Notes under the pieces: generated by a model
What the model saw: only the letters and a program-made list of their open reading frames with translations
Database searches by the model: none
Told to the model about the DNA's origin: nothing
NCBI GenBank assembly: GCA_030611085.1
Contig: JAUWQI010000011.1
Location: forward strand, 1 to 39,380
Source: Dehalococcoidia bacterium
GTDB taxonomy: Bacteria; Chloroflexota; Dehalococcoidia; GIF9; AB-539-J10
Direction: 5' to 3'
DNA: 39,380 nucleotides
Program-made: the position numbers and the translations under genes
Part shown: one piece after another, positions 28,466 to 39,380 of the stretch
Layout: the number at the start of each line of letters is the position of its first letter
How positions within the stretch are numbered: position 1 is the stretch's first letter

Positions 28466-30793
28466 ATGCATACACAGATTAATAAAAGGCGATTATCCCC
28501 ACCAGTTATAGCTGTTATAGCGCTGCTCGCCATAACTGGAATTTCCCTGTATATACGTATAGCCCTGCCTTATGACCAGGTCTTTGTTCACGGCGCGGTG
28601 TGGTTTAGAGGAAATGACGCCTGGTATTTCATGCGCCAGATAGAGAATACAGCTTGCAACTTTCCTCACATCAATCCCTTTGACCCTTACGTGCTCTACC
28701 CTGGTGGTGGTGGAGGACCTTCTCTCCGCCCCTTCTTCGTCTGGCTTGTCGCTGGCATTGCCTGGCTGGTTGGACTGGGCTCCCCCAGTCCACACATTAT
28801 AGAACTTGTTGGCGCCTACATCCCGCCTATTTTGGGCACTCTCACAATCATCGCAGTATATTTTATTGGCAAGGAGCTGTTTAACCGCTGGGTGGGCTTG
28901 TTATCGGCTGCCTTGCTTGCCCTCTTGCCCGGGGAATTTTTAAATCGCTCGCTGCTTGGCTTTACCGACCACCATGTGCTAGACAGCTTGCTCTCCACCG
29001 CCTCTATGCTGTTTTTCATTCTAGCCATTAAACGAGCCAGGGAAAGGCAAATATCATTCACACACCTCTTGCATCGAGATAGGGCCACTATCGCCAAGCC
29101 TCTTATCTATGCCTCGCTTGCTGGCATCTTCCTGGGTATGCACTTCCTTTCCTGGAAAGGTGCCCTGCTAATTGCATTCATTGTATCTATCTATTTGATA
29201 ATTCAATTCATCATAGACCACCTGCGAGGGAAATCAACTGACTATCTGTGCATCATCGGCACATCATATTTCCTCATCGCCTCCATAGTGTGTCTTCCCC
29301 ACCTGGGCAAAGCCGGGGTATCAGCAGTCTTTGGCACATCGTTGCTAATTGCCGTACTGATGCCTATAGCCTTAAGCATCATCTCTCGTCTCATGGTAAA
29401 GAAAACGGTAAAGCCTATTTACTACCTGCCGGCACTAGTGGGACTTGCTGCAATCAGTTTTGCTGTTTTCCATGCCGTTGATCCCACTTTGCTTCATTCC
29501 ATGTTAATCAGATTTAAACCCTTCACCCCAGGTGGTGCTTACCTCACCGTCCTGGAAATGCATCCTCTTCTTCTTCCCTATGGTCATTTCTCGCTAAAAG
29601 TAGCCTGGCTTAATTTCACCACTGCCTTCTTCATCTCCTTCATCTCGCTTGGCTGGCTTATCTACCTCTCCATCAAGAAAGAGCGCGCCGATAAAACTTT
29701 GTTTCTGGTGTGGAGCATAACAACGCTAGCAGCGGTCCTGGGAGAGCGTCGTTTCGGGGATTACTTCGCTATAAATGCTGCTTTGCTCACGGGTTACTTC
29801 TCGTGGAGAATCCTGGACTTTGCTGGCGTAAAAGAATTGCTAGCCAGGCCCAAACAGATGGTTAAAGCATATACAGAGGCGAAGAAGGCGAAAAAAAGAA
29901 AGAAAGCCGAGGTGAAGGCAAGAGAAAAAGCGCTACGAGAACGCAGAATCGCCTGGATGAAGGTGATTGCAATCGGAATGGCTGTCTTCTTCCTCGTCTT
30001 TTTCCCTAACATTGGAAAAGCTAAAGCTCTTGCTCAGGAGCCATCTCTCATTACCGAAGGCTGGTATAGCTCGCTTCAGTGGCTAAAGAATAACAGCCCC
30101 GAGCCTTTCGGCGACCCTGATTTCTATTACAAGCCACTCGAAACTCCGTTCCAGTATCCCAAAACCGCCTATGGCATAATGTCCTGGTGGGACTATGGCT
30201 ACTGGATAATGCGTATTTCCCAGCGCATACCAAATTCCAATCCCGGCCAGGCTAACGCTGCCAGAGTAGCTCACTTCTTCATTGCTCAGGATGAAAAAGC
30301 TGCTAACAAAATCATGGACAAAATGGGCTCGGAATATGTCATAATTGACCATCAGATGCCCACCACAAAATTCTATGCCATGCCGGAATGGGCTGGCAGT
30401 AACCAGGACGAGTTCTTCGAAACCTATTATCGGCCAACGCAGGGTGGTAAACTGGAGTCTGCAACTCTCTTTTATCCCGGTTACTATAACTCCACTGTTG
30501 TCAGGCTTTATAACTTTGATGGCAAAGCGGCAGTCCCGCATGAGACATTGGTGATTTCTTATAAAGAAGTGATACAGCATAAAGAGATTACTAGCTCGAA
30601 ATCTTTTTCTAATTATGAAGATGCCGAAACTTACATCTCAAGCCAGGAGTCGGGAAATTATAGAATAGTGGGCTCTGACCCATTTATTAGCCCCGTGCCG
30701 CTGGAAGAAATGGAGCATTACAAGCTGGTTTATACTTCAGCACAAAAGTGGCAAGGTAAGCCGGCAGTAAAGCTATTTGAGTACACTAAATAA
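28466..30793 (+). CDS. STT3-family oligosaccharyltransferase catalytic subunit
   Basis: 775 aa, many TM segments, N-terminal GNDAWYFMRQIENT and GFTDHHVLDS acidic loops, and catalytic SWWDYGYWI (WWDYG at 30185-30199). Confidence 0.9.
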   Translation: MHTQINKRRLSPPVIAVIALLAITGISLYIRIALPYDQVFVHGAVWFRGNDAWYFMRQIENTACNFPHINPFDPYVLYPGGGGGPSLRPFFVWLVAGIAWLVGLGSPSPHIIELVGAYIPPILGTLTIIAVYFIGKELFNRWVGLLSAALLALLPGEFLNRSLLGFTDHHVLDSLLSTASMLFFILAIKRARERQISFTHLLHRDRATIAKPLIYASLAGIFLGMHFLSWKGALLIAFIVSIYLIIQFIIDHLRGKSTDYLCIIGTSYFLIASIVCLPHLGKAGVSAVFGTSLLIAVLMPIALSIISRLMVKKTVKPIYYLPALVGLAAISFAVFHAVDPTLLHSMLIRFKPFTPGGAYLTVLEMHPLLLPYGHFSLKVAWLNFTTAFFISFISLGWLIYLSIKKERADKTLFLVWSITTLAAVLGERRFGDYFAINAALLTGYFSWRILDFAGVKELLARPKQMVKAYTEAKKAKKRKKAEVKAREKALRERRIAWMKVIAIGMAVFFLVFFPNIGKAKALAQEPSLITEGWYSSLQWLKNNSPEPFGDPDFYYKPLETPFQYPKTAYGIMSWWDYGYWIMRISQRIPNSNPGQANAARVAHFFIAQDEKAANKIMDKMGSEYVIIDHQMPTTKFYAMPEWAGSNQDEFFETYYRPTQGGKLESATLFYPGYYNSTVVRLYNFDGKAAVPHETLVISYKEVIQHKEITSSKSFSNYEDAETYISSQESGNYRIVGSDPFISPVPLEEMEHYKLVYTSAQKWQGKPAVKLFEYTK

Positions 30794-32287: not shown

Positions 32288-33910
32288 TTGGAACGGAATA
32301 TAGCGGTTATCGGCTGTGGCTACTGGGGTAAGAACCTGGTGCGGAATTTCGCCGAGCTGAGTGCCCTTCACACTATCTGTGACGCCAGCCCTAGCATTCT
32401 GGAGCAATTCGCTTCTCGCTACCCTGAGATAAACACCGAAACAGATTATCATCGCCTCCTCCAGAATAAGGAACTGCAGGGAGTAGTTATCGCTACTCCT
32501 GCCGTGCTCCATTATTCTATAGCAAAGGAAGCACTCCTTGCCGGCAAAGATGTCTTTGTAGAAAAGCCTCTTGCCCTTAGAGTTGAAGATGGAGCAGAGC
32601 TGGTTGAATTAGCTCAAGAAAAAGGCAGAATCCTCATGGTCGGTCATCTCCTGGAATATCACCCAGCAGTGGCAAAGCTCAAAGAACTAGTGGACAAAGG
32701 AGAACTGGGGAAAATCCAATACATCTACTCCAACAGACTTAATTTGGGCAAATTTCGCACTGAGGAGAATATCCTCTGGAGCTTCGCTCCTCACGATATA
32801 TCAGTTATCTTGCTGCTGCTTGGTGGAGAGATGCCCCAGGAAGTCTCCGCCCATGGTGGCTATTACTTACATCAAGATATTGCCGATGTCACCTTAACCA
32901 CAATGAACTTCAAGGATGGCATAAGAGCCCATATCTTCGTAAGCTGGCTTCATCCTTTCAAAGAGCAGAGGCTTGTCCTCGTGGGCGATAGGAAAATGGC
33001 AGAATTTAACGACACCAAACCCAAGGACAAGCTTTGCCTTTACAGTCACCAGATAGAATGGATTGAAAGAAAGGCTATTCCTCGCCTGGAGGAAGCTGAA
33101 ATTGTCCCGCTTCCCTCAGAAGAGCCGTTAACAATAGAATGCCAGGATTTTATTAATTGTGTAGAAACCCGTAGCAAACCAAAAGTTGATGGACGCAAAG
33201 GGCTACAGGTTCTGGAGATTTTATCCGCTTGCCAGAAATCGCTGGAACAAAATAGCAAGGTCATTACGCTAAACAAGCCAGAGAGCAGTTACTTTACTCA
33301 CGAAACAAGCATCATAGAAGAATCCTGCCAGATTGGTGAAGGAACGAAAATATGGCACTTTTCCCACATTATGCCCCAAGTGACTATGGGCAAGAGCTGT
33401 GTTATTGGGCAGAATGTCTTTATCGGCAAAGGAGTGAAAATAGGCAACAATGTCAAAATTGAAAACAATGTCGCTGTCTTTGAGGGAGTAACCTTAGAGA
33501 ACGATGTCTTCTGCGGACCCTCCTGCACTTTCACCAATGTTATTAACCCAAGGAGTCAAATATCCCGCAAACACGAATTCAAACCTACTCTGGTCAAAAA
33601 GGGAGCCACCATTGGCGCCAATGCCACTATCGTCTGTGGCAATAATATCGGTAGCTATGCTTTCATAGGCGCTGGCTCTGTAGTCACCAAAGATGTTCCC
33701 GACTATGCCCTGGTTTACGGCAATCCCGCCAAGCTTCGCGGCTGGGTCTGCGAATGTGGAGTGAAACTTAACTTCGGCGAAAATACCCAGGCCCAATGCT
33801 CCGGATGTGGTAAAATCTATCAAAAGAAGGGCAAGGAGATAACTAAGATTGAGATTGAGATTGAGATTAAGATTAAGACTGAGAGTGAGTCTGAGTCTGA
33901 GGGACAATGA
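32288..33910 (+). CDS. Gfo/Idh/MocA oxidoreductase fused to a left-handed beta-helix acetyltransferase (WbpB-WbpD-like fusion)
   Basis: N-terminal [27 protein letters not shown]-terminal hexapeptide repeats [60 protein letters not shown]; ends in repeat-encoded [21 protein letters not shown]. Confidence 0.9.
33845..33898 (+). repeat. Nine-unit hexamer tandem repeat inside CDS (repeat A)
   Basis: aagatt gagatt gagatt gagatt aagatt aagact gagagt gagtct gagtct; translated as alternating IE/SE dipeptides. Confidence 0.85.
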
Positions 33911-35172
33911 ATATCCCCCTGGTTGACCTGAAAGCACAATACAACTCCATAAAGGGAGAAATCGACCACGCTATCGCTCAGGTCATTGAGCGCAGCCAAT
34001 TCATTCTTGGTCCAGAGGTCAAGGCTTTTGAGGAAGAGATTGCCGCTTACCTCGGCGTCAAATATGCTGTAGGCGTTGCCTCAGGCACTGATGCCCTAAA
34101 TCTGGCTCTACTTGCCTGCGGGATTAAGCCCGGCGATGAGGTCATCACCACACCCTTCACCTTCATCGCTACCACCGAAACCATAACTCAATGCGGCGCT
34201 ATCCCGATATTTGTGGATATAGACCCAAAGACCTGCAACATCGATCCCCAAAAGCTTGAAGAGCTTTTGGAAAGGAAATTCTCCCACCAATCCCCAGTGA
34301 AAGCTATCCTACCCATCCACCTCTATGGTCAAGCTGCCGATATGGCTCCTGTTCTGGAGCTTGCTCAAAAATATAACCTCAAAGTTATTGAGGACTGCGC
34401 CCAGGCTTTAGGAGCAGTTTATTATAGTCGGCAGTCGGAATCCCAGACTCCAGACTCCAGACTCCAGACTCAAGGCTCTGAACTCAGAACTCAGAACTCA
34501 GAACTTGGCTGCAGGGTGGGGTCGCTGGGCGATGCTGGCTGCCTTAGCTTCTTCCCCAGCAAAGTGCTTGGCGCTTACGGAGATGGGGGCATGGTAGTAA
34601 CCAATAACCCTGAGGTCGCCGAAAAGGTTGCCATACTTAGAAATCATGGCTGCAAGGAAAAATACTACCACCTCGTTCCTGGATTCAACAGCCGCCTTGA
34701 TTCCCTTCAGGCAGCCATCCTCAGAGTTAAGCTAAAGCACCTTGATGCGTGGATTGACCAGCGGCGTCAAAAGGCTTCCCTTTATGCCCGCCTTCTTGAA
34801 CCGATAGATGGAATTGAGCCACCTTACGAAGCGACTTACAGCCATCATATCTTTAATTACTACACCATTCGCCTCACGAATTACAATAATGTAGGGGAGA
34901 CTCTTGTATCCTCCCACCCTACTCAGCGTGCGCGCTCCCGGGATAAACTGCGAGAACACCTTAGCTCGCAAGGCATTGCCACCGCTATTTACTACCCTCT
35001 TTCCCTTCACCTCCAACAGGTCTACAAATCCCTGGGCTATCAACCCGGCGACTTCCCTGAAAGCGAGAAGGCTCAGGAAGAAGTCCTCTCCCTACCTATC
35101 TATCCCGAGCTGACTACAGAGCAAATAGAAATGATAGCAAAAGCGATTAGGAAATTTACAAAGAGAGATTAA
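33907..35172 (+). CDS. wbpE: DegT/DnrJ/EryC1 (WbpE-like) sugar aminotransferase with two repeat-derived insertions
   Basis: [91 protein letters not shown]. Confidence 0.92.
34443..34505 (+). repeat. Nine-unit heptamer tandem repeat inside wbpE (repeat B)
   Basis: ccagact x4, caaggct, ctgaact, cagaact x3 = 63 nt, frame neutral; encodes (QTPDSRL)(QTQGSEL)(RTQNSEL). Confidence 0.9.
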
Positions 35173-35290
35173 CATTAAAATTAAGACTGAGACTAAGAAT
35201 CTCAACCTGAATCTCAACCTGAATCTGAATCTGAATTCTGAATCTATTTCTGTTATGATAGGGCAGCCGGCAGGATGATGGCGATATTAA
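35172..35290. repeat. Composite hexamer repeat element C
   Basis: attaagactgagactaagaatctcaacctgaatctcaacctgaatctgaatctgaattctgaatctatttctgttatgatagggcagccggcaggatgatggcgatatta; lies between wbpE and vapB. Confidence 0.8.
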
Positions 35291-35303
35291 TTAAACAGCT
35301 TGG

Positions 35304-35332
35304 TTGACATACATAACCTTTGGTCATATAAT
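35304..35332 (+). promoter_or_regulatory. Consensus sigma70 promoter upstream of vapBC
   Basis: ttgaca 35304-35309, 17-nt spacer tacataacctttggtca, tataat 35327-35332. Confidence 0.75.
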
Positions 35333-35371
35333 TAAGCCATATGAAATAGACATAAAATAAGGAGATTATAT

Positions 35372-35575
35372 ATGGCAAAGACAACGGTTGTTATAGATGA
35401 CGAATTACTGGAGGAGGCGATGCGAGTGACCAGTGCCAAGACCAAGAAGCAGGTTATCTCTGCTGGGCTGAAGGAGTTAATTCGCAGAAAGAATTTGGAA
35501 GCCTTACGCCAAGAGGCAGGTACATTTGACTTAGCTCTTTCTCTAGAGGAGCTAGAGAAACTGAGAAATGAGTAA
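35372..35575 (+). CDS. vapB: VapB-family antitoxin
   Basis: MAKTTVVIDDELLEEAMRVTSAKTKKQVISAGLKELIRRKNLEALRQEAGTFDLALSLEELEKLRNE; overlaps the PIN gene. Confidence 0.85.
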   Translation: MAKTTVVIDDELLEEAMRVTSAKTKKQVISAGLKELIRRKNLEALRQEAGTFDLALSLEELEKLRNE

Positions 35576-35987
35576 TAATCTTGTGCTCATTGATACCTCG
35601 GTTTGGATTCCGTTTCTTAGGAAATCCCCACCACTGGCAGTAAGGGATGAAGTAGACCATTTGCTGGCGGAAAATAGGGTAGCTATTGTTCCAATGATAC
35701 GCCTGGAACTGTTAGGTGGCACTAAATCAGCAGATGAGTTTGACCGTCTCAAAAGCCATCTCGACGCTCTTCATCGAATACCAACTGACGAAGCCAACTG
35801 GAAGGCAGCAGCCCAGCTTGCTTTTGAACTACGGCAGCGAGGTAAGATTATTCCTTATACTGACATACTCATCGGCTCAGCAGCAATCCTTAGCAATTCT
35901 TTATTGCTTCACGCCGACAGACACTTTGATTTGATGGCTGAGGATACTGACTTGAATGTGAGGAGTCTTGTCTCCAAAGTGCACTAG
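35568..35987 (+). CDS. vapC: VapC-family PIN-domain toxin ribonuclease
   Basis: NLVLIDTSVWIPFLR, RLELLGG, IPYTDILIGSAAILSNSLLLHADRHFDLMA: PIN acidic residues. Confidence 0.9.
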   Translation: MSNNLVLIDTSVWIPFLRKSPPLAVRDEVDHLLAENRVAIVPMIRLELLGGTKSADEFDRLKSHLDALHRIPTDEANWKAAAQLAFELRQRGKIIPYTDILIGSAAILSNSLLLHADRHFDLMAEDTDLNVRSLVSKVH

Positions 35988-36187
35988 TGGTGAAATCGCC
36001 GGCAAGCGCACTTATCTTCTGGGATTTCCCGGACCCTACCAGGGAAACACTAGCCCACGCTGGCATAAGCCGAGAACAATGGCTACGCTCATATGAACTA
36101 CCCGCTACCCCCTACACGCTACTCCCTATCCGCTACCCGCTACTCCCTCTATGCGCTACCTTCTACCCGCTGCCCGCTACCCGCTAA
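35987..36187 (+). CDS. Short ORF whose C-terminal half is translated heptamer repeat; possible gene fragment
   Basis: SALIFWDFPDPTRETLAHAGISREQWLRSYE looks protein-like, followed by LPATPYTLLPIRYPLLPLCATFYPLPATR encoded by CTACCCG-type heptamers. Confidence 0.35.
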   Translation: MVKSPASALIFWDFPDPTRETLAHAGISREQWLRSYELPATPYTLLPIRYPLLPLCATFYPLPATR

Positions 36188-36369
36188 TCCGTGATGGCAG
36201 GACAGCAGAGATAATTAAGACTAAGACTAAGACTAAGACTAAGACTAAGACTAAGACTAAGACTAAGATTAAGATTAAGACTAAGGCGAGACTCTAAATC
36301 TGAATTCTGAATCTGAGTCTCAATCTATTTCTGGGACGGCAGAGCCGCCGAAAGGATTGTAGAAGTATT
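36098..36369. repeat. Composite repeat element D (heptamers + TAAGAC hexamers + GAATCT hexamers + GGACGGCAG core)
   Basis: CTACCCG-like heptamers 36098-36187; core aatccgtgatggcaggacagcagagataat; TAAGAC/TAAGAT units 36216-36287; gaattctgaatct; gggacggcagagccgccgaaaggattgtagaagtatt. Confidence 0.85.
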
Positions 36370-36413
36370 TGCGAGTATGAAATATAATAATACAGGAAAA
36401 ATGAGGAGGAGCA

Positions 36414-36659
36414 ATGATTAGCAAAAGGAGTTATAAAGAACGGATAGTGATTGACACTAGAATTCACTTTGGGAAACCTTGCATTGCAGGGACCAGAATT
36501 CCAGTAGAGAATGTGCTTGAATTGATTCAGGAAGATATCCCATTTGATAGAATCATCGAGAAGTATTATCCAGATCTGGAAATAGAGGATGTGAAGGCTT
36601 GCGCTAGATATGCGACAGACCTGGTGCGCTCGGAAGAGATTCATATAGGGGCAGTCTAG
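36414..36659 (+). CDS. DUF433 domain antitoxin
   Basis: RIVIDTRIHFGKPCIAGTRIPVENVLELIQEDIPFDRIIEKYYPDLEIEDVKACARYA is the diagnostic DUF433 sequence; SD gaggagg. Confidence 0.9.
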   Translation: MISKRSYKERIVIDTRIHFGKPCIAGTRIPVENVLELIQEDIPFDRIIEKYYPDLEIEDVKACARYATDLVRSEEIHIGAV

Positions 36660-37028
36660 ATGCATCTCCTTACTGATCAAGATGTTTATCAAGTGACTGT
36701 AGTCCAACTCAGGGAATGGGGTCACGATGTAATGACAGCAAAGGAACTCGGAATGCAGCGGGCGTTGGATGAAAACCTTCTGAGAAAAGCAAAGGAGACA
36801 AATCGAATATTTATCACAAGGGACAAAGATTTTGGCGCTCTTGTTTTTCTGGAAGAATCGCTGTCAGCAGGAGTCATTCTATTGCGAATTACACCGATAA
36901 CTATAGAAGATGTGCATCGGGAGCTTTACCTGCTTTTCCGCGAGCACACCGAAAACGAGTTAAAAAACCTTTTCTGTGTGATTGAACCATATCGCTATAG
37001 AATTCGCCGCCTACAGGAGGCGCGGTAA
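36660..37028 (+). CDS. DUF5615 PIN-like toxin
   Basis: MHLLTDQDVYQVTVVQLREWGHDVMTAKELGMQRALDENLLRKAKETNRIFITRDKDFGALVF; immediately downstream of DUF433. Confidence 0.88.
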   Translation: MHLLTDQDVYQVTVVQLREWGHDVMTAKELGMQRALDENLLRKAKETNRIFITRDKDFGALVFLEESLSAGVILLRITPITIEDVHRELYLLFREHTENELKNLFCVIEPYRYRIRRLQEAR

Positions 37029-37029
37029 T

Positions 37030-37195
37030 AGCGCATAGCGGGTAGGGTGTAGGGTGTAGGGAACTACCCGCTACCCGCTAATCCGTGATGGCAGGGCAGC
37101 AGAGATAATTAAGACTAAGACTAAGACTAAGACTAAGGTCAAGACTGAGACTCAGAATCTCAACCTAAATCTAAATCTGAATTCTGAATCTGTAC
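37030..37195. repeat. Composite repeat element E
   Basis: Inverted TAGCGGGTAG/CTACCCGCTA arms, then ctacccgctaatccgtgatggcagggcagcagagataattaagactaagactaagactaag (one mismatch to element D), then gactcagaatctcaacctaaatctaaatctgaattctgaatct. Confidence 0.85.
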
Positions 37196-37230
37196 AAGAA
37201 AATTCACTTATCGTTTAAGAGGAGTCTGAA

Positions 37231-37755
37231 TTGAAGAAAATTAGAATTATATTTGAATCAGGCCCTCTTATTACTTCCTGTAAGTTTCAAGTGGAGGGGA
37301 AACCAATTGTAGATTTAATTCTGGACTTCTGCGAGATTGTGATACCTCCTTCAGTTAAGAGAGAGGTTATTGAGGAAGGCTATAGGTATCCTGATAGTAT
37401 TATTGCTAAAGAAAGGAGCAATCAAGGTAGAATAGTGGTGAAGAACCTCTCAGGCAGCCAGGATAGGATATTGAAGATGTACAAACTAGGTGATGGAGAA
37501 AGAGAAGCAATCCAGTTATACCAAGAGCAAAGGGATAGCCCAGATTATCTTGTTATTGACGACAATTTGGCTTATATTGTTAGTGACTGCCTAAGGCTAA
37601 AGAAAATATTTCTCCTTGATCTGGTGTTAGAGTTAGTCAAGAGGGATAAGATTAAGAAGGATAGCGCTCGGAAGATTATCGAAGTGGTTCGCTCTAGGTA
37701 TTCAGAAGGCTTCATCGAGCATTCCCTTGAAATGCTGAAGGCGAAGGAGGCATGA
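37231..37755 (+). CDS. PIN-like toxin (DUF3368-like)
   Basis: IIFESGPLITSCK, IVIPPSVKREVIEEGY, LGDGEREAIQLYQEQ, DYLVIDDNLAYIVSDCLRLKKIFLLDLVLELVKR: DUF3368/PIN pattern. Confidence 0.75.
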   Translation: MKKIRIIFESGPLITSCKFQVEGKPIVDLILDFCEIVIPPSVKREVIEEGYRYPDSIIAKERSNQGRIVVKNLSGSQDRILKMYKLGDGEREAIQLYQEQRDSPDYLVIDDNLAYIVSDCLRLKKIFLLDLVLELVKRDKIKKDSARKIIEVVRSRYSEGFIEHSLEMLKAKEA

Positions 37756-37756
37756 G

Positions 37757-38014
37757 ATGCCAAAAGTAGAAGTAAAAATTGATGACAGGTTCTTCAAGTT
37801 CCTAAAACTATGGGCTCAACAAGAGAGAACAGAGGAGTCGGGGGTTTTGGCAAAACTTATAGAAAGAGAATATGAAAGAAAGCTGAGAGAGTTTTATGAG
37901 CAGTTCCAGAGAGGGGAGATTAGCTTAGGTTATTTAGCCAGAGAAATGGGACTGGCAAGGAGAGAAGCAGAAGAGGTTTTAGAAAAGCGGGGATTAAGGG
38001 TAACAAACATCTAG
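37757..38014 (+). CDS. Putative antitoxin (UPF0175-like DNA-binding small protein)
   Basis: 85 aa; ...FQRGEISLGYLAREMGLARREAEEVLEKRGLRVTNI resembles the UPF0175 HTH C-terminus; abuts the PIN-like gene. Confidence 0.6.
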   Translation: MPKVEVKIDDRFFKFLKLWAQQERTEESGVLAKLIEREYERKLREFYEQFQRGEISLGYLAREMGLARREAEEVLEKRGLRVTNI

Positions 38015-38126
38015 GACTATGACCCAGCAAAGGTCTCCGACTCAGCTTGTTGGTATTTCACTTCGAGCCAGAGAAAGAGGAGGAATTGGTAAGCATTGAA
38101 GCGTGATAGCAAGCTTACTTTCAGAG

Positions 38127-38236
38127 GCTACCCGCTACACGCTAATTGGGGACGGCAGGGTAGCCGAGAGGATTGTGGAGATAATTAAGACTAAGACTAA
38201 GACTAAGACTGAGAATCTCAACCTGAATTCTGAACA
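38127..38236. repeat. Composite repeat element F
   Basis: ggctacccgctacacgctaattggggacggcagggtagccgagaggattgtggagataattaagactaagactaagactaagactgagaatctcaacctgaattctgaac; ends at the IVP start codon. Confidence 0.85.
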
Positions 38237-38668
38237 ATGAAATTCGTATCATTTACAGAAATGCCTGTGTGGCAGAAAGCACATAAATTGGCTCTGGATG
38301 TTTATGAACTCACAGCATCATTTCCCAAAGAGGAGGTTTATGGCTTGACTTCCCAAACCAGAAGGGCTGCCTTGTCTGTTTCAGGAAATATAGCCGAGGC
38401 TTTTGGAAGATTTCACTATCTTGATAAGAACAAGTTTTATTTAAATGCCAGAGGCTCTTTGGAAGAGACAAAGAACTATCTTATAATTTCCCAAGACTTG
38501 GGCTACACCATGGCGGAAACTTGTCGACTAAAGATAGACAACATTGACGATATCAACGAGGAGTTAAATACTCTGATCAAAACTCTAAGAATACGAAACC
38601 AACACAAACCTAAACCCGAATCTCAATCTAAATCTGAATCTGAATCTGAATCTGAATCTGAATTCTGA
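38237..38668 (+). CDS. Four-helix bundle protein (S23 / 23S rRNA intervening-sequence protein family) with repeat-encoded tail
   Basis: FTEMPVWQKAHKLALDVYELTASFPKEEVYGLTSQTRRAALSVSGNIAEAFGRFHYLDKNKFYLNARGSLEETKNYLIISQDLGY; tail KPKPESQSKSESESESESEF. Confidence 0.9.
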   Translation: MKFVSFTEMPVWQKAHKLALDVYELTASFPKEEVYGLTSQTRRAALSVSGNIAEAFGRFHYLDKNKFYLNARGSLEETKNYLIISQDLGYTMAETCRLKIDNIDDINEELNTLIKTLRIRNQHKPKPESQSKSESESESESEF

Positions 38669-38683
38669 ATCTGAACCTGAACC
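38617..38683 (+). repeat. Hexamer tandem repeat G (TGAATC)n spanning the IVP C-terminus and the intergenic gap
   Basis: cgaatc tcaatc taaatc tgaatc x4 tgaatt c tgaatc tgaacc tgaacc, directly before ATG 38684. Confidence 0.85.
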
Positions 38684-38932
38684 ATGTCCACATCTGAGGG
38701 CTACATAGGCTATGCTAAAGACATCGGTTTTATTGCTGGAGCACAAGCAGCAGTAGCTCTGCTGCAGTTTATCCGACTTCCCATTCTAACCAAATGGCTT
38801 GGAGTTTCTCTCTATGGCATCTGGTCCCCCATCTGGGTGACTATCGTTCTGGTCACGCCGCTGGCTGTGTTGGGCTTGCAAGCAGCCTTCACGCGATTCC
38901 TGGCTTGCCTTTCACCGCGAGAACTCTTTTAA
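38684..38932 (+). pseudogene. N-terminal fragment of a polysaccharide (Wzx/MATE-type) flippase
   Basis: MSTSEGYIGYAKDIGFIAGAQAAVALLQFIRLPILTKWLGVSLYGIWSPIWVTIVLVTPLAVLGLQAAFTRFLA then CLSPRELF*; the typical protein would be >400 aa. Confidence 0.65.
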
Positions 38933-39189
38933 CTTGGCGATTAGTTGCTAGTACTTTTGGCTGAGATTTCCACTGCTTCTCGAGCTGCCTCATTTTCATA
39001 AAAGTTCCTGTGCAAGGCATTTGCTCGCTACTATAGCTTAAGGAGGGGTTGTTCCATTGGTAAAGCTCCAGACAGAGCTCCAATCTCCCCAGCCGGCGGC
39101 GTTTTGAGTTCTGGCTCTCCAGTAGAACTTGGTGCCATCATTGGGGAAGTCATTATGAGGTCGGATGTCAATAATGGACACGAAACCTT

Positions 39190-39380
39190 TCATGCTGCCA
39201 CCAGCCTGGCATAGTATTTCTGGGCATAAGCTACAGGTGATAAGAATCCCAGTTTAGCCTGTAAACGCTGCCGGTTGTAAAATAGCTCAATGTATTCTGT
39301 AATGGCGTCAATTGCTTCCCGCCTGGTCCGATAATGGCGGTGATGAATAAGTTCTTGTTTGATTATTCCCCAGAAACTCT
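39190..39380 (-). mobile_element. IS3-family transposase OrfB C-terminus (continues beyond the window)
   Basis: Complement reads SFWGIIKQELIHHRHYRTRREAIDAITEYIELFYNRQRLQAKLGFLSPVAYAQKYYARLVAA*, the canonical IS3 OrfB C-terminus (FYNRQRLQ..LGFLSPV). Confidence 0.9.

Follow-up and report, generated by a model that had tools for sequence, protein, structure and literature searches.

How toxin-antitoxin (TA) modules that carry no mobility gene enter bacterial chromosomes and accumulate there is a general question, and it is raised by an island in a surface-glycan operon of an uncultured Dehalococcoidia bacterium. The window analyzed here (39,380 nucleotides; GenBank JAUWQI010000011.1, assembly GCA_030611085.1) is the entire contig C11 of a metagenome-type draft genome, G000 (1.16 Mb, 30 contigs, 83% complete), and its nearest named operons are from Dehalococcoidia. 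Three TA pairs (VapBC, DUF433-DUF5615, and PIN-UPF0175) and an S23/IVP four-helix gene all point the same way between the aminotransferase gene wbpE and a truncated flippase gene, and a composite repeat precedes each of the four units (Table 1). This is the layout that an earlier note had drawn from the DNA sequence, and the genes and the tandem-repeat arrays A and C to G were all found where it placed them. The layout looks like a gene-shuffling scar and not an integron. Our tentative explanation, held at somewhat less than an even chance, is that recombination built the island, as a zone of insertion where a wecB gene of the glycan operon ends. It combines known things in a new way, namely TA accumulation, 3'-end duplication, and in-gene tandem repeats.

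The wecB gene encodes UDP-GlcNAc 2-epimerase, and its product ends in a conserved segment (LWDGxxAERIVEII). The elements that separate the units contain a GGCAG core, as the earlier note reported; judged by its sequence, this core is the last ~15 codons of wecB, an identity that the note missed, as it did the presence of two wecB tails in element D. In elements D, E, and F, the tail is placed between heptamers (CTACCCG) and hexamers (TAAGAC/GAATCT), and the conserved LWDGxxAERIV segment is in frame. A small profile of wecB C-termini, scored in bits, gave 40 bits for the second tail of D (D2) and 34 bits for the tail of F, while nothing in 0.62 Mb of shuffled sequence reached 14 bits. In a relative, G064, the same letters form the 3' end of wecB, with the protein ending in LWDGRTAERIL. 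The frame is open from the heptamers across both arrays in D1 (the first tail of D), E, and F, and in F it continues to a stop codon that overlaps the IVP start codon (ATGA). The hexamers start at the wecB codons I-K-T, as they do in wecB of another relative, G076, whose C-terminus is IKTQSQSKSES. Because the frames are open and the hexamers start as in G076 wecB, we take the punctuation to be, most plausibly, the end segment of a wecB gene together with its in-gene repeats. When a full wecB alignment was scanned across 26 stretches, all stranded pieces were 3'-terminal (~20 residues, once ~110), and no N-terminal or middle piece was found.

Elements D, E, and F are homologous copies of one unit. 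They are alike without being identical, as had been noted before: D and E are 92-93% identical over 87-93 bp, D and F 74-77%, and a 12-bp deletion is common to D1 and E. D and E are nearly identical although the modules behind them, DUF433-DUF5615 and PIN-UPF0175, are unrelated. The arrays include (CTACCCG)x12.4 at 36098-36186, (TAAGAC)x11.7 at 36216-36285 (TRF score 126), and (GAATCT)x10.5 at 38618-38681. Copies of one unit could also mean that the composite of heptamers, wecB tail, and hexamers is a small mobile repeat, similar to a miniature inverted-repeat transposable element (MITE), that captured a wecB end and was inserted between pre-existing TA genes. Parts of the composite are found elsewhere in the draft, heptamers with a tail on contig C17 and the hexamer half on contig C18 (L029 11794-11858), where a composite hexamer array with a 20-nt junction identical to that of element E lies upstream of a PhoU-like gene and a phosphate permease gene. 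However, a mobile repeat is distinctly improbable. No terminal inverted repeats or target duplications were seen, complete copies are confined to this 2-kb stretch, and a search of 393 genomes of the class found the hexamer junction in G000 alone. Among the hexamer and CTACCCG elements, only the site-1 inserts of wecB (z about -3) and the heptamers of element E fold clearly better than shuffled sequences. Most hexamer halves fold no better than shuffles, and a hairpin or MITE reading of the hexamers was rejected for this reason.

Repeats can mislead a short-read assembly into joining distant places. The draft is fragmented and incomplete, and the contig terminates in an insertion sequence just past the island. 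Such an artefact is nevertheless very improbable, since D, E, and F are not identical, the longest perfect arrays are ~60 bp, the order wbpE-IVP-flippase matches G076, and the pattern recurs in the assemblies of G041 and G076.

The cassette-like arrangement also recurs within the draft, on contig C17. The only full wecB of the draft is found here, and hexamers and heptamers are inserted in it in frame. Behind it come UPF0175-DUF3368 (PIN), heptamers, a tail relic (ASERIVEILVSS), VapBC, and further heptamers. The stretch CCCGCTACCCGCTA is common to D, E, and the C17 relic and lies immediately ahead of the tail. The VapC of C11 and that of C17 share only 26% identity, and the genes of one locus are thus not copies of those of the other. 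Elsewhere in the 1.16-Mb genome, hexamer arrays of the form sought are limited to the interior of the C17 wecB and the C18 site, and ACTCNNN heptamer arrays to C17, C15, and C5. Those on C15 and C5 are in housekeeping genes, at the C-terminus of nadB (L162 5340-5410) and in frame inside purL (L163 5200-5250). The repeats do not flank housekeeping genes as often as TA units, most arrays being in the two glycan/TA clusters. Nine of 11 PIN genes of the draft lie away from arrays, and arrays are therefore not needed for TA acquisition. The wecB genes of G000 (L034 6535-7385) and G076 (L031 5811-6940) share four positions at which tandem repeats are inserted (NL/QS/ES/SN-rich linkers); wecB of G064 is without them.

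Relatives were screened in 84 genomes of the order, and 13 of these have the wbpBD fusion. The plain order UDPDH-wbpBD-wbpE is mostly without TA genes and with few or no arrays, and wecB is next in G064 and G056. Beside these empty operons, the cassette-like arrangement was observed in simpler form in two relatives. G076 has DUF433-DUF5615 between wbpBD and wbpE and an IVP gene between wbpE and wecB; its IVP is 86% identical to that of C11. After its wecB tail come a HicB-like gene (below the Pfam cut-off), hexamers, and a diverged second tail. The DUF433 units of G000 and G076 are at different junctions and have low identity (43% for DUF433, 25% for DUF5615), indicating that they were acquired separately. 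In G041, hicB (PF15919, E 6e-11) lies between two copies of a 117-bp segment (98/123) composed of a palindromic in-gene repeat, unlike that of G000, and a wecB tail. A direct duplication of a gene 3' end around an insert is therefore present in G041, and in G000 tails flank units. Taken literally, the same TA genes in the same order without repeats were found in none of the relatives.

Further features of the relatives were recorded. Inserts in wbpE lie near the same place, before GSLGDAGC, in three genomes (window 34443-34505; G076, L031 4352-4626; G006, L179 13553-13596); they are heptamers, with hexamers too in G076. G006 has a DUF433 gene beside a decayed DUF5615 gene between wbpBD and wbpE (L179 14150-14600). 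In G005 (L233 8186-8350), a mini open reading frame (ORF) looks like a wecB start joined to a wecB tail, as if the body of the gene had been lost (MKIASVVS...FGDGKAAERMTNII). In G043 (L236 3720-4080, minus strand), an ORF with a KRGGQKSNRNARKHGFYS-type start lies between UDPDH and a stranded wecB tail.

If the island is an insertion zone at the end of wecB, the starting state would be the plain operon UDPDH-wbpBD-wbpE-wecB, as in relatives. In this lineage, tandem repeats would have entered several genes in frame, including wecB, and would there have come to lie on both sides of the last ~15 codons. After this, the S23/IVP gene and TA modules unrelated to one another would have been gained serially at wecB 3' ends. 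Every acquisition would have left or duplicated a segment of repeat, wecB tail, and repeat next to the incoming module, since it was in these short repeats that the exchanges would have ended. We infer exchange between short repeats as the mechanism (homologous, or by RecA-independent replication slippage), and the order of events as well. Exchanges that ended in short repeats within and behind wecB would account for relics that are 3' ends only, for the close match of D and E despite the unrelated genes next to them, and for the direct repeat around hicB.

Several observations weigh against this explanation. At the wbpE/wecB junction of G063, a ParE-type pair is present and arrays are absent, and G076 and G006 have TA modules without arrays between wbpBD and wbpE. 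The stranded tails of G005 and G043 adjoin no recognized TA gene. Among the 13 genomes, the association of arrays with TA or IVP genes is weak (3/4 vs. 1/9, kinship ignored). For no relic in G000 is the resident wecB the nearest sequence, and in G076 the relic matches the wecB of that genome at 29/45 positions. The tails are short (45 nt each), and several may be relics of displaced wecB genes instead of copies. Given these mismatches, displacement of earlier wecB genes probably contributed.

The modules without arrays, the tails without modules, and the distance of the G000 relics from the resident wecB would also fit passive wreckage, as would a longer wecB 3' relic near a flippase gene in G056 and the arrays in nadB and purL. 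In that case, wecB genes would have been replaced and lost again and again in a fast-turning glycan operon with their 3' ends surviving as relics, TA genes would have landed wherever a junction tolerated them, tandem repeats would have spread independently throughout, and the three would have no mechanistic link. We consider this unlikely, though a serious possibility. Random loss should leave N-terminal and internal pieces, and none were found; D and E, with unrelated genes next to them, are recent copies of a single element; and the repeat around hicB in G041 is a true direct repeat.

Site-specific insertion would also gather modules at the end of a gene. The wecB 3' end could be an attachment site at which small tail-carrying TA cassettes insert serially, via a trans-acting recombinase or repeat-guided recombination, and we hold this to be quite unlikely. 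Its strict form, in which a recombinase acts in trans on the wecB 3' end, every TA cassette arrives with a tail of its own, and repeated events build the series gene-tail-cassette-tail-cassette, is improbable. Order and orientation fit it in C11, C17, G076, and G041, the relics are 3' ends only, and unrelated cassettes have common punctuation. However, there is no recombinase ORF among the units, the flanking copies start in different repeats from genome to genome, the tails diverge with no identical core, and tail pairs on one contig were found only in G000, G041, G056, and G076. The units hold TA or IVP genes only, and no element-borne recombinase was found in them.

The likeness to an integron, suggested in the earlier note, is supported partly in form and not in mechanism. 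As that note stated, attC-like sites are not evident: a scan for the consensus RYYYAAC..GTTRRRY (a consensus scan only) found a single match on each strand (0.38 expected on each), both of them within genes and neither at a junction, and an integron reading was rejected because the junctions have no attC-like pair. No integrase ORF was seen between the units or, by reading, in the ORF list of C11, and the draft genome as a whole was not searched with profiles. The cassette interpretation survives in part, in that the units are discrete and in one orientation and the punctuation is homologous and more alike than the genes it separates. The proposal of a dedicated platform for TA capture is not supported, given that the core is a wecB 3' end, that most PIN genes and the G063 pair are without arrays, and that arrays occur in nadB, in purL, and near the PhoU-like gene.

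Recognized toxin and antitoxin families are adjacent in the island. The assignment to TA-type families made earlier stands for VapBC and DUF433-DUF5615, which are above cut-off, and only partly for PIN-UPF0175. The PIN-like ORF of this pair has no Pfam match and no PDB match by sequence, and it weakly matches the DUF3368 protein of C17; its single-sequence structure model (pLDDT 39) was too poor to use. The modules are expected to act as ordinary type II TA pairs, and no role in glycan synthesis is proposed for them. A consensus promoter before vapB is in keeping with independently expressed units; the promoter scan gave no overall excess of promoters. An Rfam scan found two tRNAs and no other match. 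Just ahead of the wbp genes is an AglB/STT3-like membrane protein (window 28466-30793, WWDYG motif by eye), which G076 has too, and the operon is perhaps one for protein glycosylation. C11 ends in an IS3-type transposase fragment 450 bp past the flippase piece, with further fragments between (38684-39380).

Table 1. Genes and repeat elements of the island and its flanks (window positions).
Feature	Position	Strand	Remarks
wbpB/wbpD fusion (GFO_IDH_MocA oxidoreductase + hexapeptide acetyltransferase)	32288..33910	+	C-terminus extended by hexamer array A (33843-33901)
wbpE aminotransferase	33907..35172	+	PF01041; in-frame heptamer insert ~34443-34505
Element C	35173..35290	+	hexamers (TAAGAC..GAATCT)n, then degenerate wecB-tail-like stretch YDRAAGRMMAIL; weakest tail assignment
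Sigma-70 promoter	35304..35332	+	12-of-12 consensus (TTGACA-17-TATAAT), upstream of vapB
VapB	35372-35575	+	PF09957, E 5e-13
VapC	35568-35987	+	PF01850, E 1e-9
Element D	36098..36370	+	(CTACCCG)n, tail D1 36187-36220 (12-bp deletion), (TAAGAC)n, (GAATCT)n, tail D2 36329-36370 FWDGRAAERIVEVF
DUF433	36414-36659	+	E 1e-20
DUF5615, PIN-like	36660-37028	+	E 2e-20
Element E	37030..37195	+	inverted heptamers (hairpin z -2.3), wecB tail with the deletion of D1, (TAAGAC)n, (GAATCT)n
DUF3368-like PIN ORF	37231-37755	+	motifs by eye; PADLOC PDC-S70 match 8e-9
UPF0175-like ORF	37757-38014	+	E 0.003, below Pfam cut-off
Element F	38127..38240	+	two heptamers, wecB tail 38145-38186 IGDGRVAERIVEII, (TAAGAC)n, (GAATCT)n
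S23/IVP four-helix-bundle gene	38237-38668	+	PF05635/TIGR02436, E 3.5e-31; hexamer-coded C-terminal tail (array G)
Flippase start	38684..38932	+	Polysacc_synt, below cut-off; open 82 codons only

At each junction, a wecB 3' end enclosed by tandem repeats can still be read, and related genomes show empty, single, and multiple states. The route of acquisition is therefore testable in sequence data. In-gene short tandem repeats, usually seen as products of slippage, are here tied to gene turnover in surface-glycan operons. The open-access literature gave no account of wecB tails or of such TA arrays in Dehalococcoidia.

Integrative elements, such as islands that target tRNA and protein genes, insert at the 3' end of a gene and duplicate it. 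The island resembles them in that the 3' end of the target gene is duplicated around an insert, best seen for hicB in G041. It differs in that the inserts are without a recombinase, the tails are diverged, and the copies start in in-gene repeats.

Short direct repeats of this kind are found in other bacteria, and the cyanobacterial STRR are comparable heptanucleotide repeats. In Beggiatoaceae, heptanucleotide direct repeats likewise form short arrays upstream of start codons, at the ends of ORFs, and within ORFs at positions that resemble surface loops (MacGregor, 2015; PMC4679880). The repeats of the island are direct too, with short units, and lie between genes and at the ends or in the loops of ORFs, as is typical of prokaryotic heptamer and hexamer repeats. 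Compared with the Beggiatoaceae and cyanobacterial heptamers, they are 6- and 7-mers of other sequence, concentrated in two glycan/TA clusters, and they bracket a piece of wecB. Rickettsia palindromic elements are similar in being in-frame repeats in unrelated protein-coding genes (PMC10969869), and the wecB site-1 insert folds as well; here, however, the repeats are tandem and not a ~150-bp palindrome with a conserved peptide, and most arrays do not fold. The S23/IVP intervening sequence has been described as a selfish element in Coxiella 23S rRNA (PMC4990558). The gene of the island belongs to the same family (PF05635), but it is an operon gene between wbpE and wecB or flippase and is not in rRNA.

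TA-rich chromosomal integron arrays, such as the Vibrio superintegron (PMC8191803, PMC11551772), line up small modules of unrelated kinds, TA pairs among them, in a single orientation and with common punctuation, as the island does. The island differs from them in having no visible integrase gene and no attC-like junction pair; its punctuation is a wecB 3' end with tandem repeats, and its units are two-gene TA operons.

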